Shown here: one piece after another, positions 12,311 through 60,483 of the stretch
Layout of the letters: the number at the start of each line of letters is the position of its first letter
Position numbering within the stretch: position 1 is the stretch's first letter
DNA from: Tetracentron sinense
Taxonomy: Eukaryota > Streptophyta > Magnoliopsida > Trochodendrales > Trochodendraceae
Assembly (NCBI GenBank): GCA_015143295.1
Contig: CM026567.1
Span: 9,442,416 to 9,506,415, forward strand
DNA: 64,000 nucleotides
Reading direction: 5' to 3'
Position numbers and translations under genes: made by a program
Notes under the pieces: model-generated
The model's database searches: none
The model's input: the letters and a program-made list of their open reading frames with translations, nothing else
Told to the model about the DNA's origin: nothing

Positions 12311-12495
12311 ACCGATCGCTCGGTCCAGTCAGCGATCGATCGGTCCATAACCGATCGATCGGTAGCTATCGCACGGTCAGAAATTTTGTATGGGGAAATT
12401 TTCCAGAGAGTGAGTTTTTGACCGGTCGATCGGTCATAAACACCGATCGATCGGTAGGCAACCGATCGATCGGTCATAACCACCGATCGCTCGGT
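12311..12495 (+). repeat. CGATCG palindrome cassette, 5' LTR of shortened Tekay element
   Basis: The clearest copy. Palindromes start at 12311, 12331, 12350 and 12364, then 12421, 12442, 12461 and 12482, so spacing within each group is mostly 19-21 bp, near two turns of the DNA helix. The spacer between groups carries TTTGTATGGGG and TTTTCCAGAGAG. It sits about 60 bp ahead of the TATA-like site. Confidence 0.9.
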
Positions 12496-13480
12496 CTTCG
12501 CGTTTTTGCAGAAATTTCTGTAAGGGCGTTTTCGTCTTTTGGGTGTTAAACCCTTACCCATAAGGGTTTGCTCGACCCTTTGAGGCCTCACTTACAACAT
12601 TGAGGGATTTTGAGAGATAGAGAGAGAGGAGGAGAAAGCTCTAACCTAGGGTTTGGTTTTGGAGAAGAAATCAAAGGGGTGAAGACCCTAGATCGTCCCC
12701 AAGCACGTTTTCTTCAAGATTTCAACTCAAGCTCGGGTGGGGTGCATTCTCAAAGCTAGGGCAGCCCTCACTCACATTTTAGAAAGGGATTTCTTCCCCC
12801 AACTCAAGCTTCTTTCAAGCAAAGGCTTCATCTTTCAAGTTGGAGCTTCAATCAAGGTCCCTACCAAGGATCAAGCCTTGATTCAAGGTTAGTACACCCT
12901 ACTAACTTCCCTTAGCAATAATCTAGATTTTCTATTGTGAAATGTGACTCTTGATAGTATGTTTTCTTCCTTATAAAGTGTATCATCTTCACTAAATATA
13001 AACAAGATAAGAAAAAGGTATGGATGTGTGGATGGGATGTCGATTGAGGCGATTGGATGCCGTATGGATGTTGTGTGATGTGTGAAATGGAAAATGGAAG
13101 ATGGGCACTTTACAAATAACGAATGTACCTTGATTTCTTGATGAAAAATACGCACTAAATAAGGGAAATGGAAGGACTAAGAAATGTGGCCCACCGTGTG
13201 TTTGATAAAATGACTAAACAAGGGATAAATGGACTTAATGAAGAAAATGGAAATAGAAATTGTGTAAATTTTCTTAGGAATGATAAATTGCTCAAATGTG
13301 CTATATGTTGCCTAAATTTTCATACCACTATGTTAAGGATTAAAATGCCATATTCATGTGATCTGCCCATTCAAGTATGTCATCATGATTACCACTATTG
13401 ACAAGCACACAAGCACGCATGCATGCATGAATTGGGTTTTCCAAGAGTAATTGTGCATAATAAAGCAAACAAGAGAAAGA

Positions 13481-13810
13481 ACATGACAAGGAGGTTGGTA
13501 GCCCAAGGAAGGGTGCTAGCCTCTGGCTCACAAGAGAAATGAAACAAGCACATGACAAGGAGGTTGGTAGCCCAAGGAAGGGTGCTAGCCTCTGGCTCAC
13601 AAGAGGAATGGAACAAGAACATGACAAGGAGGTTGGTAGCCCAAGGAAGGGTGCTAGCCTCTGGCTCACAAGAGAAATGAAACAAGAACATGACAAGGAG
13701 GTTGGTAGCCCAAGGAAGGGTGCTAGCCTCTGGCTCACAAGAGGAATAGAACAAGAACATGACAAGGAGGTTGGTAGCCTAAGGAAGGGTGCTAGCCTCT
13801 GGCTCACAAG
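13481..13810 (+). repeat. 69-bp minisatellite, about five copies
   Basis: Head-to-tail units containing ACATGACAAGGAGGTTGG and CTAGCCTCTGGCTCACAAG, the last one partial. The matching array in the 3' LTR has seven copies. Because 69 is a multiple of three, every frame through it is open and gives spurious repetitive reading frames on both strands. Confidence 0.95.
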
Positions 13811-14076: not shown

Positions 14077-14085
14077 CGTACTTTT

Positions 14086-16191: not shown

Positions 16192-16376
16192 ACCGAATGC
16201 TCGGTCCAGTCAGCGATCGATCGGTCCATAACCGATCGATCGGTAGCTATCGCTCGGTCAGAAATTTTGTATGGGGAAATTTTCCAAAGAGTGAGTTTTT
16301 GACCGGTCGATCGGTCATAAACACCGATCGATCGGTAGGCAACCGATCGATCGGTCATAACCACCGATCGCTCGGT
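16192..16376 (+). repeat. CGATCG palindrome cassette, 3' LTR of shortened Tekay element
   Basis: Same two groups of palindromes and spacer as in the 5' LTR, with a few base differences. Confidence 0.9.
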
Positions 16377-18239: not shown

Positions 18240-21213
18240 GAGGAGAGGGTTAGAGAGTTCCTTTTTGTATTTTGATAGGTGGGCATGTCCACCTTTACTT
18301 TGATTGTACTTGGTATATGTTAACTTGGAATACTATTTGGAGTTATAGAAGAAAGGAAAAAGTTGGCTTATGCTTCTGCACTTATGTTTAGTTCCGCGCT
18401 CTGATTATCATTGTATTATATTATGTTTAGCCTCTTGCATTACAGGATGGTTTGACAGGTACACGTAGTCACCTCTAAAGTATCCCTTAACTCCTAGGGG
18501 GTATTTTGGGGCGTGACAGTTCATTATCTAGCTTCACCCCAAACTATAGATTTACCATTTGCATCACATTAAGGTTAAAATCACATATTAAATCATCTAT
18601 TCAATCTTAGTATGATGACAAAGTTAGATAGTGGTTTTACTTACAAGTATAGCTATATTCATCCTTGTTATAGAAAACCCCCAAATCATATACCCTTATT
18701 TACTCACTTGATCACAATCTAGTTTACCCTAAATCATACATTCACTATTTGCATTATAGCAAGGTTAGTCTCTATTTAAATCACCCCTTTAATCATCTTT
18801 TCTATCTTTGTATAATAACAAAGTTAGGTAGTAGAATCACTAACCTCTTGGACCAATTTCTTTGTAGAAGAAAGCCTTTGAGTAGAATCTCAACTTGGTA
18901 GTGGAAGATCCTTCTTGAAGGAAATGATCCAAGCTTTGATCTGGACTCTCTTTGATCTCTACAAGACCCCTCTTGGAAATTCCCAAACTTTTCCTCTCCT
19001 TTCTCTCTTTTTCTCTCAAAAAGTTCTTCTCTAGGTATTAGAAACCTTGGTCCCCTAAAAATAGGGTATATATAGGTGTTTGGGTTGAGAAAAACCCTTA
19101 AAAAAACGTGTCTGTGCAATCTCGCTCGAGCGGGCTTCCATCTCGCTCGATCAGGTTGCTCCCAGTACTCAAAAACTCAGTTTTGGTCTATCTCGCTTGA
19201 GCGGGTTTGGATCTTGCTCGAGCGATTTGTTTTGCAAAAAAGCGCTTCGGTAGATCGGCCATAACTTTTGACTCGGTGGTCCGATTTTGACGATTCAACT
19301 TGCGTTGGATTCCTCTTTAGAAGGGGAACAACTTTCATGTTTTGTACAACTCCAAATTTTGAGTTTACTTTACCAAAAATGTCTCCAAAGCTGACTGGTC
19401 TGTAAATGGGTTTTGACAGCCCAGATTTTCAACAGTCCCGACTTTGGAAATCAGACTTTTGACCCAACCCCAACTCAAAATCTGGAAAAATGGTAAACAT
19501 GAACCTCGAAGAGGGTTCTAATACCTTTTCAAAAATTTAATGCTCACTCGATTCCGAGCAACGATGACTAAACTAGAGTCCTTTAAAGTTGAGGTAAATG
19601 CCGAAACATACCTTTTCAACACCTAGAACAAAATGAACCATCCTACCAAGAACAAAATGTAAAGGCCTTAAGCCTTTACACACACCACACAAGGCACTAT
19701 CTACACACTATTGATGGCACTATTCTCGACCTAGGGAACTCGGTTCCGGGTTTCTACATACATACTAAGGGTATTTTCATAACCCATCCACCTCGAATCC
19801 AACCCCTACTCCATTCTCATAGCTCCCGACCCTAGGTTCTTAAACCAACTAAGGTAACCCATTGAGCACAACCCAAATGCATGGGAGGCCCCGGCTGCTA
19901 CAAAATCGCTCAAATTGACACTTAGAGTGTTTTTACACTCTTTCATGTTTTCCCAAAACACCTTACACTTCTTGATTCATACACCAACTCCCATCACTCT
20001 CAAGCCATGAGGAAACCCTCACTCTCATTAACCAAACCCAACTTGTAATAAAGGCATTTGGCCCTTCCAATACTAGTGCCCTCGACACAATTCACTCACA
20101 TGAACCGTCCTTGCACATGAACAGTGCTTGTAGAAAATCCAGGGCGCTATAGTTTATCGGTGTTTTTCAAGAACAAGGGTTTTTATTCTCGATTCACGAA
20201 CACCATAACATGGCCAAACGTAAGGGTTGGTAAATAGAGGTAGGGCATATCTTAAGATATGTTTTGCCTCGCTTTTTGACAAGAACAAGAACACGCCAAG
20301 CCAGACCCCAAGCATGCATGTTTACTTTCGATGCATTTTTGTTAAAGAGGGGTTTCCCCTCCCTCACAAGTTGTATCTCATTTAGGAAGAGGGGATTCTA
20401 AACCACCCTCCCTCACAAGTAGCATGAGCATGTTTACTTTCCAGTCAAGCAAGCAAGCATGAGCATTTACATTTCATGGCATGACATGCATGATACGACA
20501 AGACAAGAAATACATGATATGACACGAAAAGCAAGACATGGCATGACACGACAAAACGAACAAGACAGAATATGGCAAGACAATTTTTCAAACATGAAAA
20601 GAGCATTTCAAGTCAAGTCAAGCACATGATGTTTTTAAGAGTTTTTTCGACTTTGATATGATGCAAGCATGATCTATCAATTGTTTACTCTTCGTGTCAA
20701 TTATATGAACTGCTTCCTGCTTATTTCTGTTATTATTATGATATGAATGTTGGTTAGTATTTGATCCCCGTTGAGTATTCCATGCTTAGCCGTACTTTTG
20801 ATGTCGGCAGGTGTTAGTGGAGCGCCTGCTCCTTTTGACATCTATGCTCCCGATCCGTGGGAGGAAGAGGAGTACGTTGAGGAGGTCCCTGCTGTGAAGC
20901 CTCATGTGGAGGACTACTTCTAGGTGAGTGTGAGTGAGCATGAGAAATTCATACCCATGTATTTTGGCGGGTATGTTCGCACCTTCTTTTGTTGATTTCC
21001 TTTTTTACAAACTTGGATTACATGTATATACATAGAGGTTTTGTTTAGACTTCCGCTGTGCCATGTTTAGTTTATGCTTTCGTTATCTTGTCCTCTTTTG
21101 TATATGCTCTGTATATGTTGCAGGATGGTTTGTCAAGCATGTCATGTAAGTCATGATAAGTCATCCAAGATTCACTCTAACTCCTAGGGTGAGTTTTGGG
21201 TCTCGACAAACGG

Positions 21214-22866: not shown

Positions 22867-23052
22867 ACCGATCGATCGGTGGTATGGACCGAGCGATTGG
22901 TGGCTTACCGGTCGATCGGTGTTATGATCGAGAGATCGGTCAAAAACACACTCTCTGGAATTTTTCCCCATACGAAAAAGTTAATCGTGCGACAGCTATC
23001 GAGCGATCGGTAGTTGACCGATCGATCGCAGGTAATGACCGAGCGATCGGTC
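22867..23052 (-). repeat. CGATCG palindrome cassette, 3' LTR of Tekay element
   Basis: Palindromes ACCGATCGATCGGT and ACCGAGCGATCGGT with the spacer (CTCTGGAA and CCCCATACGAAAAA on the plus strand). It lies about 60 bp upstream of TATAAATA when read on the minus strand. Confidence 0.9.
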
Positions 23053-23378: not shown

Positions 23379-26300
23379 CTACTCAAACAAGTGAGGGTAC
23401 TTTTCCTTCACTTCCGCTTCTCGCTCCCATGTAGCCTCTTCCTTGGAATGATGCTGCCACTTCACTAGGACTAAAGGGATAGTCTTGGTTCGCAACACTT
23501 GATCTCGACGATCCAGAATCTGAACTGGTTGTTCAACCAACGTAAGATCCTCTCGAATCTCAACAGGATCAAGAGCGATGACGTGAGACGGATCCGAAAT
23601 ATATTTTCTAAGCATAGAGACGTGAAATACATTATGGACCGCTGCCATGTGAGGCGGTAGTGCTACTCTGTAAGCAACCTCACCAACCCTTGTGACGATC
23701 TCAAATGGTCCCACGTACCTAGGACTGAGCTTTCCCTTCTTCCCGAATCGCATGATTCCCCGACTCGGCGAAATCTTCACAAAGACCCGATCTCCAACTC
23801 GAAACTCTAAATCTCTGCGGCGTTTATCCGCATAGCTCTTCTGCCTATCCTGAGCACTTTTCAATCGCTCCCGGATAATTTTGACCATTTCTGGGGTCCG
23901 CTCTATCAACTCAGGACCAAGAATTTTCCTCTCACCAACTTCATCCCAGTATAGCGGTGATCGACAACTCCGACCATACAGAGCTTCAAAAGGTGCCATC
24001 TGGATGCTTGCTTGATAGCTATTGTTGTAGGCAAACTCAACCAACGGCAACTGTTCCTCCCAACTACCCTGAAAATCCAGCATACAAGCTCGGAGCATAT
24101 CCTCCACTACTTGATTCACTCTCTCCATTTGTCCATCGGTCTGAGGATGGAAGGCGGTACTGAATTCTAAACGAGAACCCATAGCATCCTGGAAAGTTTT
24201 CCAAAACCTGGAAGTAAACCGAGGATCTAGATCGGACACGATAGAAACTGGTACACCGTGCAGTCGAACCACCTCCTTAACATATAGGGCTACCAACTGA
24301 TTTGCATTGAAAGTAGTTCGGTACGGAATAAAATGTGCAGACTTAGTCAACCTGTCCACAATCACCCAAATAGCATCGGAGCCCTTCGCCGTTCGCGGCA
24401 AACCCACAATGAAATCCATCGAGATGTTCTCCCATTTCCACTCCGGAATAGGAAGGGACTGCAAAAGACCTGCCGGCCTTTGATGTTCGGCTTTTACCTG
24501 CTGGAAAATCAAACATCTGGCGACGTACTCAGCGACTTCCCTCTTCATGTTTCGCCACCAGTAGTGCTTCTTGAGATTCTGGTACATCTTAGTACCTCCC
24601 GGATGTACCGTGTACTTTGATCGGTGAGCTTCATTCAAAATTTCATCCCTCAAAACTGCGTCGGCGGGGACACACAACCTGACCTTGAATGTGATAGCAC
24701 CATCATCATTTAAAGCGAACTCCTGATTGCCGTTACTCACCGACTTGTCTCGGTAAGCAAGCAACTCAACATCTGAATTCTGTAACTCCTTGATCTGGCT
24801 CAGGATCTGTGGCCTAACCACCATATTGGACATTATCGGCCCATAGGTGACATGCCCGAGAGTAGCGTCCAAATGACACATATCATGTAATAATTTCCAC
24901 TCTTGCACTCTCAATTGAGCCATAACTCCGTAAGGTTTTCTGCTAAGAGCATCGGCTACCACGTTAGCCTTACCCGGGTGGTACTGGATGGAACAGTCGT
25001 AGTCCTTCATGAACTCCATCCAACGACGCTGCCTCATATTCAACTCCTTCTGGAGGAAAAGATACTTCAAGCTCTTGTGGTCTGTGAACACCACGAACTC
25101 TTCTCCGTAGAGGTAGTGACGCCAAAGTTTCAGTGCAAAGATGACTGCAGCGAGCTCTAAGTCATGTGTGGGGTAATTCTGCTCATGCTCCTTCAGCTGA
25201 CGGGAAGCATAGGCGACCACCTTTTTATGCTGCATCAAAACACATCCAAGTCCCACTAGTGAAGCATCACTATAGACTTCGAAACCACCGCTCCTAGATG
25301 GAACTGTAAGAATAGGAGCCGAAGTAAGCTTCTTTTTCAACTTCAAGAAACTAGCCTCGCACTTATCACTCCAAGTGAACCTCGTGTTCTTCCGTGTGAG
25401 ATAGTTAAGCGGAGCTGCTAAACTTGAAAATCCTTCCACAAACCTTCTGTAATATCCTGCCAACCCAAGGAAACTACGAATCTCGGTGACACTCTTCGGT
25501 CTTTCCCAATTCATCACTGCTTCAATCTTTGCAGGATCAACTGAAATACCTTCAGCAGATACCACGTGTCCAAGAAAAGACACCTTGTTCAGCCAGAACT
25601 CACACTTGCTCAACTTAGCATATAGACTATGCTCTCGAAGTGTCTGCAATACCAGACGGAGATCTCTCGTATGATCCTCCTGTGACTGTGAATACACAAG
25701 GATATCATCTACGAACACGATCACATATTGATCAAGAGACGATTTGAACACCCGATTCATCAAATCCATGAATGCTGCCGGCGCGTTAGTCAGTCCAAAG
25801 GACATGACCAAAAACTCGTAATGACCGTATCGAGTTCGGAATGCTGTCTTCAGAATGTCCTCTTTCTTGATCTTCAACTGATAATAACCAGATCGAAGGT
25901 CAATCTTGGAGAAAAACTGCGCACCCTTCAATTGGTCAAACAAGTCGTTTATCCGAGGCAATGGATAACGATTCTTGATCGTGACCTTGTTCAATTGCCT
26001 GTAATCAATGCACATACGCATTGATCCATCTTTCTTCTTCACGAAGAGAACCAGAGCTCCCCAAGGTGAAACACTTGGCCGGATAAAACCAAGGCCTTGT
26101 AATTCTTCTAACTGCTCTTTTAACTCCTTAAGCTCAATAGGGGCCATCCTATACGGAGCTCTTGAAATCGGAACTGTGCCTGGAGCTAGCTCAATCGCAA
26201 ACTCGATTGCACGATCGGGAGGCAATCCCGGCAAGGTTTCCGTAAAAACATCCATATACTCACATACCACCGGAATAGGTGTGGAGTCTCGCACTTCTAC

Positions 26301-26705
26301 ACCCTCGAGACTAAGAGCTGCAAAGCGGGCAATGTCTCTTCTCTGAAGTCCCCTGAAATGAAACGGCTTTAACCCCACGGGTTTAAAATGCACCACCTTC
26401 TCGAAACACGCCACGTGTCCATGGTGAGTTGAGAGCCAATCCATACCTAGGATGACATCGAAATCCCAATCCTGAAATCCCAGAAGGATCAAGTCGACTG
26501 GCAACTCGTGCTGCATGACTTGTACAACACTATCCGGATACACTTTATCTGTCTCAATAGATTTTCCCAATGGAGTCGAAATGGACAACTCCCTAAGTAG
26601 CTTGCTTGGCTCGGACATATAGCCTTTGGCAAAGCTTGGTGAAACGAACGAGTGAGTGGATCCTGTGTCTATCAACACTCTTGCCAAACATTCATTTACG
26701 AGCAA
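23379..26705 (-). CDS. pol: Tekay pol: protease, RT, RNase H, integrase, chromodomain-like end
   Basis: A long open frame of about 1108 residues. Protease: DTGSTHSF at about 13-20. Reverse transcriptase: about 215-380, with [18 protein letters not shown] and the catalytic FVDDILVYS at 331-339. RNase H: about 480-590, with YSDAS and TDHKSLKYL. Integrase: a zinc-binding part, then [19 protein letters not shown] and [14 protein letters not shown]. The C-terminal end [19 protein letters not shown] resembles the group II chromodomain of Tekay/Del elements, thought to guide insertion to marked chromatin. There is no ATG at the upstream end; in this lineage gag and pol are normally one polyprotein. 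Treated as a fossil copy that still looks largely open. Confidence 0.93.
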
Positions 26706-26983
26706 CGAACCTGAGAATTTGAATCATCCCAGTTATAACACAACTATACATATAGATACAAACATCACAAAACACCACATAGGATATATATATAGATACG
26801 AACATATCATGGCAATATTAGAACTTCGACAAAGACTAGTTCGCGCGTACCTTGTACAACATCATCAGATGCCTGTGCGTCTCTATCAGTCATGGCAAAG
26901 ACTCTGCCCTGGTTCGCCTGACGAGGCTGCTGGGTAGGCTGCAAGGATCTAGAGGCCTGAGATGAAGACCCCTGAAGTGAATT

Positions 26984-28066
26984 CTACCTGCCTGGAGGCC
27001 GAACTCCCTGTGATCCAGACTGTGACTGCTTGCGCGGGCAATCTCGAATCATATGGCCCATCTCGCCACAGTGGAAGCATCCACCTGACATTCTTCGGCA
27101 ATCTCCAGTCTTATGCCGACGACCACATACGGCGCACTCCTCAAATGTCTGCGATGCGGAGGAAGCCGGAGGCATAACCCTCGTAGCTTGCGATGCCGTA
27201 GGACGCGGTGCCTGAGGCGCCAAAGAAGGTCTCTGAGCCGACATCGGCTGGGAGAACTGGTACGGTGCAGTCCTAGTCCTTTTCTCTGAAGAACTACTCG
27301 ACTGACCCCGAGACATGCTCTTCCTGAAGCCACTGTCTCTTCTTCTCACGAAGTCTTCCGCATTCTTTTCGGCGATCTTTGCCTTCCCTACTATCTCTCT
27401 CCAAGAATCTACCTGGAGGATGGACACCCGATCTCGGATGAAAGCCTTCAAGCCCATCTCAAACTTCCTGACCTGTAGGTCTTCAGTAGCCACCAAGTGC
27501 GGAGCAAACCTAGACAACTCGGTGAACTTAGCCTCATACTCGGCTACGCTCATCGACCCTTGCTCCAAAAGCATAAACTCTCTCGCCTTTTGTTCCCGAA
27601 TAAACCTGGGAAAGTACTGTTCCCTGAAAGTCTCTAAGAACTCCACCCAAGTCCAGGGCACACCTGCCTTAGCAACATCTCTCTGCCTTTGGGTAGCTCT
27701 CCACCAGTGTTCGGCTTCACCTTCCATCACGAAGGAAGCCCATTCTACCCTTTGCTCATCGGTACAACGGAGAGCCCGGAAGGTCTTCTCCAGCTGCATA
27801 ATCCAAGACTCGGCCACCATGGGGTCCAGAGTGCCATAGAATGTAGGAGGCTGCAGTCTCCTAAAAGCTTCGAGCCCCGCGGTGTGATGCACCGGTGTAG
27901 GCACAGGCGTGGACGGTGGGGTAGGCATAGGCCTTGCTGCCAACAATGCCAAAGTCTCGGCTATGGAGTCCATAGCATTTGTGAAATACAACGGTTCCTC
28001 TTCTCTCGGAACTTCACTCTCGGCCTTCCGAGTATGGTAACCTCGACCCCGATTGCCACGTCTCAT
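26984..28066 (-). CDS. gag: Tekay gag
   Basis: About 360 residues from the ATG at 28066 (MRRGNRGRGYHTRK), chosen because the same MRR-N-RGRGY start occurs in the related element at 14834. It has the retrotransposon gag core (AESWIMQLEKTFRALRCTDEQRVEWASFVMEGEAEHWW and TWVEFLETFREQYFP), a Ser/Pro/Gln linker, and two Cys/His knuckles near the C-terminus (CAVCGRRHKTGDC and CFHCGEMGHMIRDC). Gag forms the virus-like particle and binds element RNA through the knuckles. Confidence 0.93.
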   Translation of the reverse strand: MRRGNRGRGYHTRKAESEVPREEEPLYFTNAMDSIAETLALLAARPMPTPPSTPVPTPVHHTAGLEAFRRLQPPTFYGTLDPMVAESWIMQLEKTFRALRCTDEQRVEWASFVMEGEAEHWWRATQRQRDVAKAGVPWTWVEFLETFREQYFPRFIREQKAREFMLLEQGSMSVAEYEAKFTELSRFAPHLVATEDLQVRKFEMGLKAFIRDRVSILQVDSWREIVGKAKIAEKNAEDFVRRRDSGFRKSMSRGQSSSSSEKRTRTAPYQFSQPMSAQRPSLAPQAPRPTASQATRVMPPASSASQTFEECAVCGRRHKTGDCRRMSGGCFHCGEMGHMIRDCPRKQSQSGSQGVRPPGR

Positions 28067-28420
28067 GATATCGAATCCTGAGATCAATTTGGCAAAACAT
28101 GAGTCTAACTTGGATACCAAACCTCACATATCATATAGCAATTCAATAATCATGAAATGCTATACTGCACGTAGTATACATCGAGGTATATATATATATC
28201 ATCATATAATTATACTTTAGAGCCTATACTAGAACCTTGCATAGGATCACATCGATCTCGGATCCTATACTGACCTAAGAATTCACTTGATACCGGTTAT
28301 GTCGTGGTAACAAGCCTAAGACAACTGAGTCCTTCCGAGTTCTAAGTTCAACTCATAGGAATTACTTCCGCTTAGGCCAAGCCTGAGTGACCTAACTACG
28401 TCTATCGTCAGACATAACTA

Positions 28421-36414: not shown

Positions 36415-36419
36415 GCCTC

Positions 36420-45608: not shown

Positions 45609-46153
45609 TGTAGAGCCCCGGACCTTTTCACATTTAATGCATGACACTTTCGCTGCCATTTTTCCTTTAAAGAGGTATAATTAATAAATAAGGAAGAAAT
45701 TGGAAATTCTGAAACGTCAGAAATGTTCCTTTTCGAAGTACGAACCCAACGCAAGTTGAATCGTCAAAATCGGACAAACGAGTCAAAAGATATGGCCAAA
45801 ACAGTCTGGACCTGCAGGCAATCGATCGCTCGGTTATGCACTAAGGATGTAGCGCGGAAGGCACTAAGGACGTAGCTCTGACAACGTGCTCTGATAAGGC
45901 ACAGACAACGCATAGACAACGTACTCTGATAACGTAGCTCTAGCTCTGATAACGTATACGTTGTGCATCCGTTGTGCAACAAACAACGGGTGCGTCGTGC
46001 AGTAGACAACGTGTACGTTGTACAGCTCACGACGGGCACATTGTACTTGAGACAACGTGACAACGGGTTCGGCACCCTTCACAGCACAACGTACTCGGCA
46101 CTATTCACAGCACAACGTGTTCGGCACCATTCACAGCACAACGTGTTTGGCAC
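45609..46153 (+). mobile_element. LTR-F: truncated Tekay LTR start with an AACGT-rich cassette
   Basis: It starts TGTAGAGCCCCGG, and its first 230 bp match the U3 of other Tekay LTRs, including the TTGAATCGTC box near 45750 and one ATCGATCGCTCGGT. From about 45850 the cassette slot holds AACGT-rich repeats and palindromes in place of the CGATCG palindromes. It stops at the opposite-strand LTR-G. The remainder of this LTR was not found on the far side of LTR-G. Confidence 0.7.
45850..46153. repeat. AACGT-rich repeat and palindrome block
   Basis: Many copies of ACAACGT/ACGTTGT, including the 12-bp palindrome AACGTATACGTT near 45953, near-palindromes such as ACAACGTGTACGTTGT near 46005, and three to four tandem copies of a roughly 27-bp unit around TTCACAGCACAACGTGTTCGGCAC at 46074-46153. 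Confidence 0.85.
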
Positions 46154-48187: not shown

Positions 48188-48371
48188 ACCGAGCGATCAG
48201 TGTTAATGACCGATCGATCGGTTGCCTACCGATCGATCGGTTTCATAACCGAGCGATCGGTTAAAATTTCACTCTCTGGAAAATTTCTCCATACAAAAAT
48301 CTTGACCAGTCGATAGCCTCCGAGCGATCGGTTTTGGACCGATCGATCGCTCCATAGACCGAGCAATCGGT
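48188..48371 (-). repeat. CGATCG palindrome cassette in LTR-G
   Basis: ACCGAGCGATCAGT, ACCGATCGATCGGT and variants in two groups around the shared spacer (CTCTGGAAAATTTCTCCATACAAAAA region on the plus strand, quoted in parts: CTCTGGAAAATTT, CCATACAAAAA). It ends about 60 bp before TATATA on the minus strand. Confidence 0.88.
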
Positions 48372-49692: not shown

Positions 49693-49858
49693 ACCGATCG
49701 CTCGGTATTGGGACCGATCGATCGGTGGCTATCGACTGGACAAAAAGTTTGTATGGGGTATTTTTCCAGAGAGATGATTTATAACCGAGCGATCGGTCAT
49801 TTGGACCGAGCGATCCGTTTTGGACCGAGCGATCGGTAGTGAGCACCGATCGATCGGT
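49693..49858 (+). repeat. CGATCG palindrome cassette, 5' LTR of SIRE-type element
   Basis: ACCGATCGCTCGGT, ACCGATCGATCGGT, then GGCTATCGACTGG, the spacer TTTGTATGGGG and TTTTCCAGAGAG, then four ACCGAGCGATCGGT-type palindromes. It ends about 45 bp before the TATA box. The order of parts and the spacer match the Tekay (Ty3/gypsy) LTR cassette. Confidence 0.93.
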
Positions 49859-50604: not shown

Positions 50605-50657
50605 AAGTTCACTGATAAGGCTAATCCCTTAAGTGTGATCCTGTATTATCCGTGATC

Positions 50658-53600
50658 ATGAGTACTCTAAGAGAAGGTGGATCCATCTCTCGTCCCCCAC
50701 TTTTTGATGGAAATAATTATGCATACTGGAAAGCTAGAATGAGAGCCTTTGTCAAATCTATTGACGAGAGAATTTGGATGTCTATACAGAATGGGTGGAC
50801 TACGCCCATAAAAACTGTAGGTGATTTGACTGTCGTCAAATATTCTGATGAATGGACCAGAGAAGAGCTTGAGTCAAGTGGATGGAACACTAAAGGTCTC
50901 AATGCTATCTTTACTGCAGTCACTGCTGAGGAATTCAGACGAATTTCTTCATGTGAAACAGCAAAGGAGGCTTGGGACATTCTTGAAATTACCCATGAGG
51001 GTACTACCACTGTTAAAATCTCAAAACTCCAAATGTTAACCACCAAATTTGAACATTTAAACATGGAAGACAATGACACTTTTGATGAATTCTATGCAAA
51101 ACTTAGTGACATTGTCAACGCTCGTTTCAATTTAGGTGAGAAAATATCTGAGTCCAAAATTGTTAGAAAAGTCCTTAGATCTCTCCCAGAGAGATTTCAA
51201 CCCAAAGTCACTGCAATCAAAGAGAGTAAAAATGTTGACTCTCTGAAGATTGAGGAATTGGTTGGATCACTCCAAACCTATGAACTGAATCTACGTCCAT
51301 CCAAGAAGAACAAATCTTTAGCCTTGAAATCCATCAAGGAATCTTTGGATGAGGATGACAGTGATGGAGATATGAATGAGGAAGAAATGGCTCTCTTCGT
51401 TAAAAAATTTCGAAAATTTTTTAGAACGAAAAAGAGGTTCAATCCCAAACAGGGAGGAAAATCTTTTGAGAAGTCAAAGTCTAAGCCCTGGGAAAACAAG
51501 AAAAATTCCAAGAGTGGCGACAAGAAATCCCAAGGTGTTCAATGTTATGAATGCCATGGCTTCGGTCATATTTCACCTAACTGTCCTAACAAGAAGAAGA
51601 GTAAGGGCAAGGTGATGAATGCCTGTTGGGATGACAGTGATTCCGAGAATGAAGAATCGGACAGTTCCTCTTCAAGTGAAGATACTGGAAATCATACGGC
51701 TTTCACTGTTTCCCTTTCTGGGATTCTTGAGACTACCTCTACGGTTGATGAAAATGATAGAAGTGATGAGAGTATTCATACTGAGTCTAGTGATGACTTA
51801 CAGAAGAGTCAAACTGACTCTGAAAGTGATGAAGATTTGAAAACAACTTATGATAAGTTGTATGCTGAAAGTTTGAAACTGACTAAAACAAAAATCTGTT
51901 TGAGCAAAAAACTCAAACTCATTCAAAATGAAAGAGATATTTGTAAACTAGTAGCAGAAGAGAAGAGTGCACTAGTTAGTCAGTTGGAAAATGAAAAAGA
52001 AGCATTTGTTATAAAAGTTCAATGTCTTTTGGAAGAGAATGTCTCATTGACTAATGTGGTCAGAAAATTAGAAGTTGAAAGAGACACTTCCATGAAAGAA
52101 ATTGAAGAGTTAAGAACTCTGCAAATGGAGCTGGAAACTTTTAAAGACTCTCTTGTTGATAAGGTGAAATTTCTTGAAAAAGAACATCAAATTACCCTTA
52201 AAGACAAGACTGACTTGATTCAGAAGGTCTATACTCTTGAAAAAGAAGTAAGAATGTTTGGTAACACTAGCTGCCTAGATGAATTAGTTAGAAAGTATGG
52301 ATCAAATTCGAGTAGATCTGGGATAGGACATGTTGACACACCAGCTGGTCATTTAGCTATTGGTACAATGGCTAGTGCAGTGTTTGAACCAATACATTCT
52401 GATCCTAAAGAAAATTTACCTTCTACATCAAGTACTAAGGCTTATACAAATTTTGTAAAGCCTAGAAATACAGCTCCTAGAGTGAATGCTTTGAGGAATC
52501 AAATTCCTATTAGAAGAAATCCTCCTCCTCTCCCAAGATTCATACCCACATGTCACTTTTGTGGTGTGAGAGGTCACATTCGACCTAATTGTAATGCTTT
52601 TAGGAGAGCTCCCCGAAATGGTTCATGGAACCAAAATCAAAGTCAAGGGACTCTTCAAATGCAGATTCAGGTTCTAGCTGAAAAGTCTAGAATGTTGAGC
52701 GATGATGTTAATAGAATTGCTCAAATCTCTAGGACAAGAACTGGTCAATTTATTCCAAATGATTATTCAAGAGGAAACAATTTGACTTATCAAGAAGCTA
52801 GAACTGAACAAAACAGAAAAAGGTCAAGGAGGACAAAAAGGAAAAAGGTCTCTACTACACAGATTAATGATCAAAGATCTAAACAAAGTTTAAAGACTGT
52901 GTATGTAAGAAAGGAAGACCTTAAGTGCTTTGTCATTCATACTGCCTTGAAAGCCCAAAACACAGAAATGTGGTACTTCGACTGTGGGTGTTCTCAGCAT
53001 ATGACAGGTAACAAGTCCTTATTTATTCAATTTGAGGACTGTCCAGATGGGACTGTTACTTTTGGTGATGGAAGCAAGTCTTTAGTCAAAGGGAAGGGTA
53101 TCATCGATTCACCAGGCATACCTAAATTGAAAGATGCCTTGTTTGTTGAAGGACTGAAAGCTAATTTAATTAGCATAAGTCAACTATGTGATAATAACCA
53201 TGCTGTACACTTTACCCAAAATAAATGCTTAGTCATTAATGGTAAAGGTAAGTGTGTTCTAGAAGGATTGAGAACCACTGACAATTGCTACGGCTTAACT
53301 CCCAGTCCTAATCCCTCAAATGTCTGTTATAAGACTAAAATTGAGGAGGTTGATTTGTGGCACCGAAGACTAGGTCATATGAACTTCAAAGACCTATGTA
53401 AAATCTCTAAGCAAGAGCTTGTGAGAGGTGTTCCCAAACTAGGAAAGCCTTCTACTGCTGTGTGTGGGCCATGCCAAATTGGTAAACAAATTAGAACCCC
53501 ACATAAGAAGACTTCAAGTATTGCTACTTCATATCCACTGGAATTAATTCATATGGATCTAATGGGTCCTACAAGAACTGAAAGTCTAGGTGGAAAGCGA

Positions 53601-55976
53601 TACATCCTAGTCATGGTTGATGATTTCTCAAGAATGTCATGGGTGGCATTTATAAGAGAGAAATCCGATGCTTTTGACAATTTCAAAAGTATTTGCTTGA
53701 AAATTCAAAATGAGAAAAGATGCCCAATCACTCGAATTCGAAGTGATCATGGAAAGGAGTTTGAAAACTCTAAGTACAACGACTTTTGTGATGAGTCGGG
53801 TATCAAACATGAATTTTCTGCACCTATTACACCTCAGCAGAATGGTGTAGTAGAGAGGAAGAACAGGGTGGGTTCTCCAAGAAATGGCTAGAGTTATGAT
53901 TCATAGCAACAATCTAGCTTCTCATTTCTGGGCTGAGGCAGTTAACACTGCTTGCTATATAGTTAATAGAGTTTTTGTAAGACCTGGAACAAGGAAAACC
54001 CCATATGAGTTGTGGAATAACAAGAAACCTAGTGTCAAGTACTTTCGAGAATTCGGAAGTAAATGCTATATCCTTAAGGATAGAGAGCAACTGGGCAAAT
54101 TTGAATCCCGGAGTGATGAAGGGATATTTCTTGGATATTCCACCAACAGTAGAGCTTATCGAGTTTATAACTTGAGATCCTCTGCAATTATGGAGTCCAT
54201 AAATGTAGTTATGGATGACTCCGGTGTTGAAAATGTGCAACTTGAGGATGATGAAAGTGCTGATAATGAAAATGTTGAAACTGTTTCAACTCAACTTATT
54301 GATAAGCAAACATCTCCATCAAAACCTACACATCCTAGGGTAATGCGTCCTCACACTCCCACTGATATAATTGGTGATGTTGAAAGTGGTGTGAGAACGA
54401 GGAAACAAATTGAAAATGAAGTTAGCTACATTTGCTATACTTCATCTTTTGAACCCAAGAATGTAGCTGAAGCTCTTGCAGATGATAATTGGATAAATGC
54501 AATGCAAGAAGAGTTACTTCAGTTTACTAGGAATGATGTTTGGTATTTAGTACCTAGGCCTAACAATACAAATGTGATAGGTACCAAATGGATTTTCAAG
54601 AACAAATCTGATGAAAAAGGTACTATCATAAGAAATAAGGCTAGGTTAGTTGCACAAGGATACACCCAAATTGAAGGTATTGACTTCGATGAAACGTTTG
54701 CTCCTGTAGCTAGGCTAGAATCAATAAGAATTCTTCTAGCTATGGCTTGCCATATGAAATTCAAACTTTTTCAAATGGATGTTAAGAGTGACTTTCTGAA
54801 TGGCATTCTACATGAAGAAGTCTATGTGGAACAACCAAAAGGGTTTGAAGATCCACATCACCTTGATCAAGTCTATCGGCTAAAAAGGGCCCTCTATGGT
54901 TTAAAGCAAGCTCCAAGAGCTTGGTATGAGAGGCTGACTACATATCTCTTGGAAAACAGATTTTCGAGAGGGGGAGTAGACAGAACCCTTTTCATAAAGA
55001 ATGTGAAAGGTGATATTGTCATCGCCCAGATATATGTTGATGACATTGTGTTTGGTTCCAAATTAGACTTACATGCTCGTTCATTTGCTGAACAAATAAA
55101 AAATGAATTTGAAATGAGCATGGTTGGTGAGCTAAGTTTCTTCCTTGGTCTTCAGATCAAGCAATTGGATTACGGGATCTCAGTATCTCAAATCAAATAT
55201 GCTAAAAATCTAGTGAAGAAATTTGGCATGAGCTCTGCTAAGCATGTAAGAACTCCTATGAGTTCTATTACAAAACTTAGTAAAGATGCTACAGGCAAAT
55301 ATGTTGATCAAACTTCTTATAGAAGCATGATTGGTAGTTACTCTACCTAACTGCTACTAGACCTGACATAGCCTTTAGTGTTGGTGCATGTGCCCGCTAT
55401 CAAGCGAGCCCAAAAGAGTCTCACTTACTTACAGTTAAGCATATCATTCGATATGTGAGTGGAACTTTATCATTTGGCCTCTTGTATTCTTTTGATACAA
55501 ATGCCACAATAGTTGGATATTCCGATGCCGATTGGGCCGGAAATGCTGATGATAGGAAAAGCACCTCAGGAGGATGTTTCTATATTCGAAATTGCTTAGT
55601 TGCTTGGCTTAGCAAAAAGCAGAATTCAATTTCATTGTCCACTGCAGAAGCTGAGTACATAGCAGCTGGCAGTTGTTGCACTCAACTTCTGTGGATGAAA
55701 CAGATGTTGAATGATTACGGGATTGAACAGAGCACTATGACTGTGTATTGTGATAATTCTAGTGCTATCAATATTTCCAAAAATCCCGTTCAACATTCTC
55801 GCACAAAACACATAGACATAAGACATCACTTCATCCGTGATCTTGTTGAGCAAAAGATTGTGTCTATAGAGTATGTCCAAACAGAGAATCAATTTGCGGA
55901 CATTCTAACAAAACCCTTAGATTCCCTTAGGTTTGAATTCCTTAGGAAATCCATAGGTTTGTGCGGAGTTGAGTAA
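50658..55976 (+). pseudogene. SIRE-type gag-pol (gag, protease, integrase, RT, RNase H)
   Basis: It starts MSTLREGG at the ATG 50658. Gag: FDGNNYAYWKARM near 50705, knuckle CYECHGFGHISPNC near 51541, a long coiled coil at about 51850-52260, and a second knuckle CHFCGVRGHIRPNC near 52550. Protease-like WYFDCGCSQHMTG near 52972. Integrase: WHRRLGHMNF near 53358, then HMDLMGP, DDFSRMSW and RSDHGKEF through 53870. [11 protein letters not shown] near 54580, [23 protein letters not shown], and [10 protein letters not shown] near 55030. RNase H: YSDADWAGN near 55518, STAEAEYIA, and KHIDIRHHFI to 55976. All domains are in copia order, integrase before RT. The region carries about two breaks. Confidence 0.93.
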
Positions 55977-57052: not shown

Positions 57053-57087
57053 ACCGATCGCTCGGTGCTAAAGACCGATCGATCGGT
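57053..57087 (+). repeat. Internal CGATCG palindrome pair in SIRE-type element
   Basis: ACCGATCGCTCGGT and ACCGATCGATCGGT, 21 bp apart, outside any LTR. A TATAAAA follows 17 bp after the second palindrome. Confidence 0.9.
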
Positions 57088-57103
57088 CTTTTGTGAACAG
57101 AGT

Positions 57104-57309: not shown

Positions 57310-58602
57310 ATGGCTTTCGTTTTGTCGTTAATCCTTCTTGCTTATCTCATGTCTGGCGTTCCCAAACGTCGGAGGTTGGTCCTCAACAACCAAGAGGATC
57401 CTCCTCTTGATGAGGAAAACCTAGAGCCCTTTACTTTCACTCCAATAGGGCATGGTATTTCAATTGGGGACAGGTCAATTCGTAGAATGATAGATTCTAC
57501 AATTGAGAATCGTCAAAAATCTTTGGCTGATAAAACTCGGAAAAATAAAGGTAAAGCTTCATCTTCCCAGTCCAGTAAGTTATCCCAGTTTATAAGTCCT
57601 ACTGCTGCTCAACTCTATAGTGAGTATTTTAGTAAGAAAGGTGTTATGGTTGAAAGGGACATACATATTTCTGATTTTGGTGATTATTATCTTCCTACAC
57701 TCATTTCAGATCGTCAATGGGAAGGTATACTTACCTTATCCGGTCCTGCTTCTGTCCAGTTAGTTAGAGAATTTTACTCTAATTTTTTTGAAATCAACCA
57801 GAAAAAATGGTCATTCAAATCTCGAGCATTAGAACAATCTGTTGTCATAAATGCTGATTTGGTTTCTAAATTCCTTGGCTGTCCTCGAGTTCCAAATGCA
57901 TATTATCCTTATATTTATAAGACTGATGAGGATAAAGACTCTATGGAACATGTTGTTACCTTTCTTAGTGGTACTCCTAAGTTTTGGGTTGGGTCTCTTA
58001 TTGAAGTGGCGAAACTCACTAAGGATGCTAGACTAGTAAACCTAGTTATGAGTGCAAATATCCATCCAAAGGTTCATACTGCAGACCTTAGGGAAGATAG
58101 AGCTAGATTTTTGTTTAGTCTTCTACGTGGGCGTGATATTGATCTTGCCGCTCACATCATTGACTTGATGATCCAAGCCCATCAAACTAGTACAGCAGTT
58201 GGAGCCCTACCATTTGGTTCACTCATCACTAAACTTCTTGGTTCTCAAGGAGTTATCGCTCCTCCTGGTGTTCCTACTCGAGTTCCTAAGGGTCCAATCA
58301 ACAAAAAGACCCTAGCTCAGAGTTTTTCACATGCCTCAGTTCGAGATACAGAGGAGGGAGCAGAAGTTGGTGCTGGGTCATCTCGTCCTCCTTCGACCAC
58401 TATGGATGATCTTAGGAGGATGATGCAAGAGATGCAGATGGATCTCCGGACTCATGTTTCATCATACGAGGAGTTTACTACAGAGGTTCGTGGTAGACTT
58501 GGATCTCTCGATGCAGCCATGCTAGGAGTACAGAGAGATGTTTGGGATTTTCGAGCTTACTATGAGTCCCAGCTCACTTCTGATGATGAACGGGAGGGAT
58601 AG
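57310..58602 (+). CDS. SIRE-type extra ORF after pol, 430 aa
   Basis: An open frame from ATG 57310 to TAG. A short hydrophobic start (AFVLSLILLAYLM) is followed by basic VPKRRR. A central domain at about residues 110-260 (LVREFYSNFFEINQKKWSFKSRALEQSVVINADLVSKFLG in parts: REFYSNFFE, INADLVSKFLG) resembles the so-called putative plant transposon protein domain seen in many plant retroelement ORFs. The C-terminal 65 residues look coiled coil (DDLRRMMQEMQMDLRTHV). SIRE elements are known for an extra ORF here, often called env-like, but I see no clear fusion peptide or transmembrane anchor at the C-terminus. Function unknown; treated as part of a fossil element. Confidence 0.8.
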   Translation: MAFVLSLILLAYLMSGVPKRRRLVLNNQEDPPLDEENLEPFTFTPIGHGISIGDRSIRRMIDSTIENRQKSLADKTRKNKGKASSSQSSKLSQFISPTAAQLYSEYFSKKGVMVERDIHISDFGDYYLPTLISDRQWEGILTLSGPASVQLVREFYSNFFEINQKKWSFKSRALEQSVVINADLVSKFLGCPRVPNAYYPYIYKTDEDKDSMEHVVTFLSGTPKFWVGSLIEVAKLTKDARLVNLVMSANIHPKVHTADLREDRARFLFSLLRGRDIDLAAHIIDLMIQAHQTSTAVGALPFGSLITKLLGSQGVIAPPGVPTRVPKGPINKKTLAQSFSHASVRDTEEGAEVGAGSSRPPSTTMDDLRRMMQEMQMDLRTHVSSYEEFTTEVRGRLGSLDAAMLGVQRDVWDFRAYYESQLTSDDEREG

Positions 58603-59255
58603 TTCGTGATTAGAGTTTATCTTAGTCGAGTGATAGTTTTTATTTGACATTTTGATGTATTTTGTCTTGGTTGTACTTAGTACAAACCTACTTGGATATT
58701 ATTGACTTGTTATGGATGTATACATTTGAATGGTTTATGCTCATTATCTTTTATCTCATCTCATTTGGTTGATTATGCATTACTTTTCAAGTCCACCTTT
58801 GGCATTTTGAGCCAAAAAGGGAGAGAGTTATGATTAATGAATGTGTTAATGTGTTGGAATGTTGAATGTGTTAATGTGTTGGAATGTGTTAATGTGTTGG
58901 ATGAGGTTATAAATGTTTTGGATGATGTTATGGAATGCTTAACCTGTTATGGATATAGTATTGTGGAATGGATATAGTATTGTGGAATTGTGGATGTTAT
59001 GTTATACATATTTTCATTCTTCAAATATTTTATCCTATATTTTATTTCCCATGCTTCACAGGTTTTTGATTTAGCATGTGCAGGCAAACAGGTTCTAAGT
59101 TTGGTGAATCATGACAAGCTAACATGTCAAAAGTCTTGTAATTATATTTTTGAGTCATGTAAAGGTCAATTTTCCATTTTTGAATCAATTGGGAAAATTT
59201 GAACCTAGTATATGAGTTAGTCTTGTTTTGTCCCGGAATTGCCAAAGGGGGAGAT
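58603..59255 (+). other. SIRE-type 3' noncoding region and polypurine tract
   Basis: No coding frame of note. A short GTTAATGTGTTGGAATGT repeat near 58840-58900 has about four imperfect copies. AAAGGGGGAGAT at 59244-59255 is the polypurine tract directly before the 3' LTR; a similar AAAAAGGGAGAGAG near 58812 may be a second tract. Confidence 0.7.
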
Positions 59256-60483
59256 TGTAAATCCCTAAATAGGTGTTGGAAAATTCCGTTATCATTAGAT
59301 AGGTCATGTGAGTCGAGTCATCGAGTCATGTTCAACTTGTCAGAAGAGAAGAGCTAAAGCTTAAAGAAGATTGAAGAAAAAGAAGAAAAAGCTTCTACTC
59401 TGGATCTAGACAGGTAATGGACTTAGAGACCCCTACCTAAGTTGGTTTTGGCTTAGATAACTCTAAACATACCTAGGAAGATAGTTTTAAACCTAACAAA
59501 GTTGTTTGATCTTAGTTGAATCAAATAAACATAAAAGACATATGGTTTGAACAAAATTCTGTCTCAACCGATCGCTCGGTATTGGGACGGATCGATCGGT
59601 GGCCTATCGAGCGATCGGTGGCTATCGACTGGACCAAAAGTTTGTATGGGGTATTTTTCCAGAGAGATGATTTATAACCGAGCGATCGGTCATTTGGACC
59701 GAGCGATCCGTTTTGGACAGAGCGATCGGTAGTGAGCACCGATCGATCGGTCCCCGTAAAAAGAATTTTTCTTTTTTTGAATTTTTTTTTAAACCCTATA
59801 TAAACAACTTTTTGGAGACCTAATTCGTGTCTTTGATATTTTTGAAAGAGTAGAGGTCTGAGAAATTCTTCTAGGGTTTTTCTTATTATTTTTATTAGAT
59901 CTTTGTTGATCCCTCCTCTTTCTTAGATCCTAGAGAATGCAAGTATAGATCTAAACCTTTGATCTTGCATTATGTGATCTCAAATCTGTATGAGATCCCT
60001 CTAGGGTTTGAAATTTCTTAAATTGATTCACAACCCTACACCGTGTGTGTGTGTCCGGTGTTTGATCCGGAGCCTTCGTGGAAGGAGATCGATCTTGTGT
60101 GCTCGTGGTTTTGAAGTAGCTTGAAAAGATTTGGTCGGTGTGGAACCGAAGCTGCTACGGCAGAGATCGAACCTGCTGGTTCGTGGAAATCAAGAGTAAG
60201 AGTCTATACCTAGGAACGTCGTTTCTGTTTTGGTAAGGTCTTGTCTTGTACTTGATATCTTTTCATAGTGAAGTTTATTGCTGGACAAGGTCCCGTGGTT
60301 TTTTTCCCGTTAGGGTTTTCAACGTAAAAATCTTCTGTGTTTGATTTGTGTGGATTGTCTGATTGACTTGTTCATTGATTTCTAAACATATTAATTGAAA
60401 AATTAAAATTGGTTAGAAATTATTAGATAGACCTATTCACCCCCCCTCTAGGTCTTAGAGATCATTGATCTGGATAAATTTCA
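59256..60483 (+). repeat. 3' LTR of the SIRE-type element
   Basis: 1228 bp, near-identical to the 5' LTR. It is longer because of an extra palindrome copy in the cassette and a short GAAGAAAAA duplication near 59380. Confidence 0.94.
59567..59751 (+). repeat. CGATCG palindrome cassette, 3' LTR of SIRE-type element
   Basis: As in the 5' LTR but with one more palindrome (CTATCGAGCGATCGGT) in the first group, 19 bp longer overall. Confidence 0.92.

Follow-up and report, generated by a model that had tools for sequence, protein, structure and literature searches.

A palindrome-array cassette shared by Ty3/gypsy and Ty1/copia LTRs suggests that a control switch moved between unrelated retrotransposons

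Results

The 64-kb window, the whole stretch of DNA analysed here, contains all nine copies of the cassette described below and three fully bounded LTR retrotransposon insertions. One of these is a Sirevirus (SIRE) element at 49391-60483, with LTRs at 49391-50590 and 59256-60483 and the 5-bp target duplication AATAA. Its gag-integrase and RT ORFs (50652..55350, + strand) encode Retrotran_gag_2, rve and then RVT_2, and this order, with integrase ahead of RT, is diagnostic of Ty1/copia. The sequence TATCAAAGC at 50596 differs by one mismatch from the Sirevirus PBS TATCAGAGC, and the PPT octamer AGGGGGAG lies exactly 10 bp upstream of the 3' LTR (59246; LTR at 59256). The octamer recurs at 57005 in the linker and at 54969 in pol, so that the linker has two copies in all, counting 59246; Sirevirus linkers carry four on average (PMC2829016). 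An extra ORF of 430 aa in env-like position (57310..58602, + strand) begins at the first ATG after an internal TATA and encodes PF20167 (Transposase_32) and a KRRR basic cluster, without an env domain. It had no homologue at E<=0.001 among 8000 candidates scored and no NCBIfam family up to E 1, and comparison with solved structures gave just two weak, chance-like matches (E 0.28).

The second insertion, Tekay B, lies on the - strand, with LTRs at 28437-30305 and 21408-23286 and the target duplication ATTGC. Its gag and pol ORFs (23379..28120, - strand) carry RVT_1, RNase H, the zinc-binding and C-terminal parts of integrase and a chromodomain at the pol C-terminus, which is diagnostic of a Ty3/gypsy chromovirus; the core rve domain is not among the listed domains. 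The third, Tekay A, has LTRs at 12099-14505 and 15980-18518 and the target duplication GTTCA, and is tied to Tekay by tblastn to the Tekay B pol (84% aa). Of the remaining cassette copies, named here by their first coordinate, 2639 and 10002 are assigned to Tekay by LTR similarity alone, and a chromodomain was found ahead of the LTR of copy 48188. The lineage name Tekay rests on the preliminary description together with domain content, while the domains themselves bear out its claim that two superfamilies are involved.

Seven Tekay-type LTRs and both SIRE LTRs share one palindrome block. This cassette consists of three and four 14-bp boxes (ACCGATCGMTCGGT), about 20 bp apart, that flank a 57-bp core; in two of the nine copies, the 5' SIRE LTR and Tekay copy 10002, the boxes number two and four. 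On the + strand, the cassette of the Tekay A 5' LTR spans 12311..12495 (boxes 12311, 12331 and 12350; core 12364-12420; boxes 12421, 12442, 12461 and 12482), that of the 3' LTR of the same insertion spans 16192..16376 (3+4 boxes), that of a Tekay A-like LTR starting at 2427 spans 2639..2822 (core 2692-2748; fourth box, at 2749, decayed with 6 mismatches), and that of an older Tekay copy (C) spans 10002..10172. On the - strand are those of the Tekay B 3' LTR (22867..23051) and 5' LTR (29886..30070), both with 3+4 boxes, and that of a Tekay A-like LTR starting at 48581 (48188..48371), which is preceded by the chromodomain fragment. The SIRE cassettes, both on the + strand, span 49693..49858 (5' LTR; core 49727-49783) and 59567..59751 (3' LTR; core 59620-59676). 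Coordinates of this kind had earlier been given as those of the LTRs, which are larger. Orientation and LTR region are the same in all nine copies, and the box spacing (20, 19, 71, 21, 19, 21) is identical in Tekay copies 12311 and 16192 and the SIRE 3' LTR. The two SIRE cassettes differ by exactly one box plus linker, or 19 bp, which is consistent with box-mediated strand transfer or slippage.

The box motif CCGATCGATCGG occurs 43 times in the window at <=1 mismatch, against 0.01 expected. At <=2 mismatches to the 14-mer there are 58 boxes: 55 in the nine cassettes, one (45821..45834, + strand) at the equivalent position of a truncated Tekay A-like LTR starting at 45609, and two inside SIRE, ahead of a TATA box. 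Every one of them sits either at the LTR cassette position or ahead of the SIRE extra ORF. The two internal boxes (57053 and 57074; 57053..57087, + strand) are 21 bp apart and lie 16 bp ahead of TATAAAAC, and the second is part of a 22-bp perfect palindrome (57070-57091). SIRE thus has 7 + 2 boxes; the 3' LTRs of Tekay A and B contain 7 each, and their internal regions yielded none. The boxes have the dyad-symmetric form ACCGA-NCGN-TCGGT, with neighbours about two helical turns apart. Linkers between boxes are near-equal in length, their identity being at chance level (7/30 to 10/31). CpG o/e is 1.73-1.87 in the cassettes, compared with 0.45-0.70 in the remainder of the same six LTRs.

A TATA[AT]-type site follows the cassette end at about 45 bp in SIRE, 56 bp in Tekay B and 63 bp in copy 48188, and copy 10002 has TATAAG at about 63 bp. 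On reading by eye, copies 12311 and 16192 have just CATAAGG at that position, and copy 2639 shows no such site; this departs from the earlier statement that in all copies the cassette lies about 45-70 bp upstream of a TATA-like site.

The core measures a constant 57 bp in all nine copies (in copy 2639, when the decayed fourth box at 2749 is taken as its border), and 23 of its 57 columns are invariant. Its own conserved sites are CTATCG, TTTGTATGGGG and TTTTCCAGAGAG. At <=1 mismatch, TTTGTATGGGG was found 11 times against 1.6 expected, nine of these being the nine cassettes, and TTTTCCAGAGAG seven times against 0.8 expected, all in cassettes, with the two Tekay B copies below threshold; the spacer motifs noticed previously are therefore real. 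The closest SIRE-Tekay pair of cores, SIRE 5' and copy 2639, is identical at 47 of 57 positions, ungapped (shuffle p about 1e-12). SIRE cores match those of copies 2639 and 48188 at 44-47 positions and are thus nearer to them than the Tekay B core is (43 and 40). Conversely, Tekay B is nearer to copy 12311 (46/57) than SIRE is (41-42/57), and Tekay B and SIRE match one another weakly (33-34/57, p 1e-4 to 1e-3). Once the boxes were masked, the SIRE LTRs matched nothing in the window, apart from each other, but the cores of five of the seven Tekay LTRs (E<0.05, down to 8e-7); the Tekay B cores did not reach E 0.05 against the SIRE LTRs. The mask admitted up to 4 mismatches and in some Tekay cores also covered the initial 14 bp, so this comparison is conservative. 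The spacer match thus persists in alignment.

In-register likeness between the boxes of SIRE and those of four Tekay copies is no better than out-of-register likeness (0.29-0.59 of permutations at least as good), leaving in-register descent of single boxes between SIRE and Tekay unsupported. The test has little power, because Tekay A and B fail it as well (0.36). On this sequence evidence, it is the core and architecture alone, and not single boxes, that prove homology of the cassettes.

Outside the cassette, local alignment against shuffles detected no similarity between SIRE and Tekay flanks, either upstream (four Tekay copies) or downstream (five copies), with shuffle fractions of 0.08-0.88, and nothing common to Tekay A copy 12311 and Tekay B upstream of the cassette. 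An apparent extension of homology upstream between SIRE and Tekay A (9-11 of 20 positions per bin, ungapped) was likewise dismissed by local alignment. The flank alignments and the masked search thus agree with the preliminary description that the LTRs have no other detectable similarity.

Searches of viral, bacterial and archaeal collections gave no match to the core pattern TTTGTATGGGGN{0,6}TTTTCCAGAGAG in viral or genome contigs, and in viral contigs no match to the box pair and no relatives of the Tekay pol or the SIRE RT; absence from collections of this composition means little. The one box-pair match in genome contigs, from the bacterium Ornithinimicrobium, was taken as chance or an unrelated operator. 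An unrooted tree of the nine cassettes, of the kind proposed earlier for comparison with RT as a test of exchange, cannot decide the matter: bootstrap values are 32-69 at the nodes that matter, no direction of transfer emerges, and SIRE nesting is untestable with a single SIRE branch among nine copies and no root.

Discussion

Two unrelated elements have retained one set of boxes, with its spacing and core, in LTRs that otherwise have nothing in common. The core is homologous, the architecture matches, the borders are island-like, the position is the same, and the carriers belong to different superfamilies. An annotation or assembly artefact, with one superfamily misnamed or the LTRs chimeric, can practically be dismissed: we found no point in its support, the domains and their order are diagnostic, and the block is carried by the two LTRs of all three bounded insertions, whose 5-bp target duplications are intact, which refutes an artefact for these insertions.

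Could the block be a small transposon or satellite that inserted into each LTR? It is an island with sharp borders, and its ends are inverted copies, although trivially so for palindromes. However, no target duplication is present at the borders (at most one matching base in all nine copies), and when borders are shifted by <=3 the sole repeat of >=4 is GGTC, which occurs in the pair of Tekay B copies and overlaps a box. Moreover, the block occupies the same LTR region and orientation in every copy and is never found alone in the window. This reading, raised earlier as a possible refutation of module exchange, is thereby largely refuted and seems extremely improbable.

Independent construction of the same array by both element types under one host regulator is improbable too. 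Palindromic boxes of differing sequence do occur in many Sireviruses (PMC2829016, Table 3), and the linkers are unrelated, as convergence would have it. Nevertheless, an ungapped 57-bp core with up to 47/57 identities, boxes excluded, together with an identical six-value spacing, lies far beyond single-site convergence. Movement of the module explains the data better than either convergence or common ancestry of entire LTRs, because the superfamilies differ, nothing else detectable is shared, the flanks do not align, the core survives masking, and the borders lack target duplications; common ancestry of entire LTRs had been called excluded in the preliminary description.

We therefore consider it probable that the block is a homologous, promoter-proximal cis-regulatory module of the Sirevirus RM-box kind, which moved between superfamilies and was kept by selection. 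We infer protein binding, activation, selection and a route of transfer: the likeliest partner of the boxes would be a nuclear protein acting as a dimer, which would turn on the LTR and, through the internal promoter, the extra ORF of SIRE as well. Transfer between the superfamilies would lie some time back, with recombination or template switching as the probable mechanism and the boxes providing the short stretches of homology; since then, purifying selection would have preserved the boxes, their spacing and the core, and allowed linkers and flanks to diverge. Several points count against this reading: the nine copies all stem from one 64-kb window with three fully bounded insertions, the Tekay B cores resemble those of SIRE weakly, single boxes agree no better in register than out of it, and TATA sites in Tekay A are poor or missing. 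Of the capture or exchange proposed in the preliminary description, movement of the module is supported; Tekay and SIRE may have exchanged it directly, in either direction, and its regulatory role is putative.

Each element may instead have taken the module separately from a third source, be it a family of host gene promoters or a further mobile element with the same array, which is possible but rather doubtful. The island-like borders and dissimilar flanks fit this origin equally well, the cassette is common to the LTRs of Tekay A and B, which show no likeness upstream of it, a pattern suggestive of repeated acquisition, and boxes also precede the internal ORF of SIRE. Against it, no box at <=2 mismatches lies outside LTR elements in the 64-kb window, in which the SIRE core matches LTR cores only. 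Alternatively, the palindromes could act not as protein sites but as hairpins in RNA or single-stranded DNA, serving as small-RNA source or as packaging or dimer signal. Both cassettes tested do fold better than 200 of 200 shuffles (z -7.9 and -4.1), but any palindrome array folds well, and the two predicted structures differ. Furthermore, in none of 62 boxes (of 63 listed, the decayed fourth box of copy 2639 being left out of the dyad and register counts) have both members of a dyad pair changed, and 34 of the 62 have lost the central pair 6:9. This lack of compensatory changes disfavours an RNA structure, for which constant spacing and a conserved core would be unnecessary, and we regard the hairpin reading as unlikely.

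RM boxes of Sireviruses are palindromic and CpG-rich, and many of them precede the TATA box of the LTR at a short distance, with extra ones ahead of the env-like gene (Bousios et al. 2010, PMC2829016). The SIRE element resembles this system in its LTR boxes upstream of TATA and the two more before the extra ORF. The criterion for an RM is at least eight copies over linker and 3' LTR (PMC2829016). The Tekay cassettes are likewise palindromic, CpG-rich by CpG o/e and upstream of the promoter (with a poor TATA in Tekay A), but their carrier is Ty3/gypsy and not a Sirevirus. In the passages of PMC2829016 drawn on here, RM is described as Sirevirus-specific and absent from classic retrotransposons, the comparison set being Ty1/copia, and none is reported for Ty3/gypsy. 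The box ACCGATCGATCGGT matches none of the 13 consensus RM boxes listed there; Barbara's box, TCGGTCYCACCGA, has the same half-sites in opposite orientation. Half of our finding is already known, since Sireviruses are established carriers of palindromic boxes ahead of the TATA box (PMC2829016). What appears to be new is that Ty3/gypsy LTRs carry this array and core too.

Bousios in 2016 (Genome Research) reportedly described a palindrome-rich promoter-proximal region in the LTRs of maize Sireviruses, with a hairpin/siRNA reading. The place in the LTR is the same as here, although that study reportedly concerns Sireviruses only, unlike the present array. VANDALs, which are DNA transposons, offer a further comparison. 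In Arabidopsis, VANC target motifs are short non-coding repeats that are bound by a sequence-specific protein and diverge fast between families (PMC10398659, PMC5735166); that system has an identified, element-encoded binding protein (PMC10398659), whereas a factor for the present cassette is hypothetical. It is a long shot, but this genome might hold a common stock of palindrome-array modules that LTR promoters can exchange. A cognate trans-acting factor would read them, conceivably the product of the SIRE extra ORF, which looks nuclear and lies behind the same boxes, and Tekay would then rely on a factor produced by another element or on its behalf. Boxes of the Tnt1 Box I type are not known outside a single element family, nor to have a core in common with another superfamily. 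Tnt1 Box I and comparable activator boxes of LTRs, which PMC2829016 mentions, are symmetric regulatory boxes of a retrotransposon, as the present ones would be.

If the module did move between superfamilies, exchange of parts joins drift as a way in which LTR promoters evolve, and one signal could activate, within the same cells, elements that have unrelated proteins. The purpose of Sirevirus palindromic boxes would then become directly testable.

A different palindrome-like array (CGCTCGAGCGAGAT; 19119..19226, - strand) lies at the corresponding place in another Tekay-type LTR, with four boxes spaced 21, 50 and 21, and its statistics are weak. It has TGAGTTTTTG in common with the core of copy 12311 (shuffle fraction 0.0065); we claim no homology with the cassette core, because the comparison with the core of copy 2639 gave 0.34. 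Finally, substitutions after insertion accumulated faster inside the cassette (14/536) than outside it (63/4942; Fisher p 0.019), and the cassette is thus conserved between families, yet mutable after insertion.

Elements carrying the cassette

Plant-type LTR retrotransposons abound in the window, whose G+C content is 41%; three of the insertions have both ends intact and 5-bp target duplications. These are a Sirevirus-type Ty1/copia element (SIRE; 49391-60483, + strand, target duplication AATAA), with gag, integrase and then RVT_2; a Ty3/gypsy element of the chromovirus type, putatively of the Tekay lineage (Tekay B; 21408-30305, - strand, ATTGC), with gag, RVT_1, RNase H, parts of an integrase and a chromodomain; and a gypsy derivative (Tekay A; 12099-18518, + strand, GTTCA). 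RVT_2 after the integrase in SIRE, versus RVT_1 and a chromodomain in Tekay B, confirms that the cassette, a block of palindromic boxes around a core within the LTRs, has hosts of different superfamilies, as the preliminary description held. Gypsy placement of the Tekay A insertion comes from an alignment in which 15301-15867 matches the C-terminus of the Tekay B pol at 84% on the amino acid level, that of the copy at 48188 from a chromodomain upstream of its LTR, and that of the copies at 2639 and 10002 from LTR similarity alone.

The LTRs of the Tekay A insertion are 98% identical and its internal part measures only about 1.5 kb, comprising gag and pol-end fragments. It is an internally deleted element, which either transposed in that state or was shortened afterwards. 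Both of its LTRs carry 69-bp tandem repeats in unequal copy number (13342-13917 and 17223-17930), and across those of the 3' LTR a frame of 245 aa is open on the opposite strand. SIRE, in turn, is inserted in an older repeat (49094-49391/60484-62387), of which a second, SIRE-free copy, 93% identical, lies at 34198-36415.

Architecture of the cassette

All nine LTR copies share a 14-bp box whose consensus is ACCGATCGATCGGT, position 9 being either A or C. The first group holds three boxes in seven of the nine copies and two in the others, the second group holds four, and a 57-bp core lies between them. A window-wide count of the 12-bp box core, with at most one mismatch, gave 43 occurrences against 0.01 expected. 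At two mismatches or fewer there are 58 boxes, 55 within the nine cassettes, one at the equivalent place in a truncated Tekay LTR (45821) and two in SIRE upstream of its extra ORF (57053 and 57074). Measured from start to start, the boxes of copies 12311 and 16192, like those of the SIRE 3' LTR (cassette 59567-59751), are spaced 20,19,71,21,19,21; the spacing is 21,19,71,20,19,21 in the two Tekay B LTRs (cassettes at 22867 and 29886), and 20,19,71,20,19,21 in copy 48188 and, with the decayed fourth box placed at 2749, in copy 2639; that box fits best there (6 mismatches versus 12 at 2750). Copy 10002 reads 21,71,21,23,21 and the SIRE 5' LTR (cassette 49693-49858) 20,71,21,19,21. The difference between the SIRE LTRs amounts to exactly a single box plus linker (19 bp). 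This loss of one box between the LTRs of a single insertion shows that template-switch-type events, or slippage, occur. A TATA-like site had been proposed about 45-70 bp downstream in all copies; where a TATA region is recognisable it does lie about 45-63 bp beyond the cassette end, but it is not visible in every copy.

Homology of the core and limits of the similarity

Since boxes alone might make unrelated LTRs seem similar, the core was tested without them, by hiding all boxes of up to four mismatches and searching the entire window with each SIRE LTR. Beyond themselves and their partner, the SIRE LTRs then match cores only, in five of the seven Tekay LTRs (E between 8e-7 and 4e-4). The proposed shared spacer thus persists for these five, whereas the two Tekay B cores give no match at E 0.05. 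In ungapped comparison, the SIRE 5' core is identical to those of 2639, 10002, 12311, 16192 and 48188 at 47, 40, 42, 41 and 45 of 57 positions, and to both Tekay B cores at 34, with dinucleotide-shuffle p values between about 1e-12 (2639) and about 1e-3 (Tekay B).

Outside the block, we found no LTR similarity between the superfamilies: once the cassette was masked, a comparison of SIRE with the LTRs of Tekay A (12099) or B gave nothing better than E 0.28, and the SIRE flanks, compared upstream with four and downstream with five Tekay copies, scored like shuffles (fractions 0.08-0.88). The outermost boxes are the limits of the similarity on both sides. Tekay A (12311) and Tekay B likewise show no similarity upstream of the cassette, but do share one short purine-rich match about 110 bp downstream, exceeding all 500 shuffles, as well as sections of the LTR's 3' half. 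The linkers between boxes are nearly equal in length; between SIRE and three Tekay copies they are identical at 7/30, 8/30 and 10/31 positions, which is chance level, and among the three Tekay copies at 14/30 to 20/30. A small transposon inserted into each LTR would be expected to have target duplications at the cassette borders; none was found there.

Origin of the shared cassette

How, then, did one core come to lie in two superfamilies? As had been claimed, the LTRs cannot descend as wholes from one ancestor, SIRE and Tekay LTRs being similar only between the outermost boxes, and convergence is implausible for a 57-bp core. What is left is that the module was transferred, directly between element types or out of a third source. 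The capture or exchange of a regulatory module proposed earlier survives in this form, although its function and the route of transfer we only infer. The SIRE core shares 44-47 of 57 positions with copies 2639 and 48188, with which Tekay B shares 43 and 40, and the Tekay B core shares 46 of 57 with 12311, above SIRE at 41-42. Moreover, the core variant CGACTGG occurs in SIRE, 2639, 48188 and 10002, and CGCACGG or near in 12311, 16192 and Tekay B, a split that runs across the LTR relationship. From these few sites there is a hint that the exchange may postdate the separation of Tekay A from Tekay B; support in the cassette trees is poor. Template switching could take place at the boxes, which are plausible places for it.

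Six cassettes have a CpG observed/expected ratio of 1.73-1.87, against 0.45-0.70 in the remainder of the same LTRs. Between the LTR pairs of the three insertions, substitutions accumulated faster in the cassette (14/536) than in the remainder (63/4942; p 0.019), CpG transitions making up 4/14 and 12/63 of them. Because the cassette mutates fast when unselected, and yet is the stretch kept between families, constraint probably acts on it in active copies.

Relation to Sirevirus boxes and proposed mode of action

In the available text of Bousios et al. (2010, PMC2829016), palindromic repeated motif (RM) boxes are reported for 13 Sireviruses, of which 12 show a CGG-CCG signature; they cluster upstream of the TATA box and border CpG islands, with additional copies preceding the ENV gene, and a role in regulation and in support of an internal ENV promoter is proposed. 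SIRE is a clean example of what that text describes. It calls the RM Sirevirus-specific and not present in classic retrotransposons, and mentions 'gypsy' three times, two of these passages being on other matters. The matches listed in the open-licence literature included no paper that gives the box sequence in plants or a module common to Tekay and SIRE. Sirevirus-type promoter palindrome arrays with a common core in Ty3/gypsy LTRs are a real, well-defined extension of that known system, undescribed as far as searched.

In a set of 62 boxes, A to C at position 9 is the most frequent change (26), followed by T to G at position 6 (7), C to G at position 2 (7, a first-group variant) and G to A at position 13 (5). 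The centre between ACCGA and TCGGT is therefore the most variable part. In none of these boxes are both members of a dyad pair changed, and two predicted RNA folds are both strong and mutually dissimilar. This variation is more in keeping with two putative half-sites that a dimer would read than with a hairpin, and the boxes may serve as paired half-sites for a candidate dimeric binding factor.

In the SIRE interior, two boxes 21 bp apart (the second ending at 57087) are followed 16 bp later by TATAAAAC and then by the extra ORF (57310-58602), with no other ATG between TATAAAAC and the ORF. This arrangement is as expected of a putative internal promoter. The ORF product contains PF20167 and has a hydrophobic N-terminus and, at residue 19, the basic cluster KRRR; among 8000 scored candidates, a protein search gave no homologue at E<=0.001. 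PMC11728184 reports PF20167 from an extra ORF of Athila in sunflower.

Other palindrome arrays

A further Tekay-type LTR, its block beginning GAGTCAAAA at 19274, carries another array in the corresponding slot (19119-19226, - strand), with four CGCTCGAGCGAGAT-like boxes spaced 21, 50, 21 and then TATATATA. None of 200 Markov shuffles gave more than three such boxes, but four or more also occur in 13 of the 160 window stretches taken as controls, four of these being cassettes and others plain tandem repeats. The Tekay-type LTR at 36481-38971 (- strand), which includes tandem repeats of about 76 bp (37084-37641), has a single ACCGGTCGACCAGT-like box in the corresponding slot (38379), whose centre resembles the Vitis Sirevirus box CGGTCGACCG in the available text of PMC2829016. 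Directly after the truncated Tekay A LTR lies a CpG-dense stretch (45841-46150), in which the motif GCACAACGTGTTCG recurs from about 46004 on, mostly at intervals of 26 bp. At 63591-63974, reaching nearly to the end of the window, lies a further, third type of array of 14-bp palindromes, made up of CTAACCATGGTTAG and variants with up to four mismatches. Its boxes, spaced 19-22 bp, form three groups, two of which have a 20-bp tandem repeat, CCCGGTAGGCTAGG, between them.
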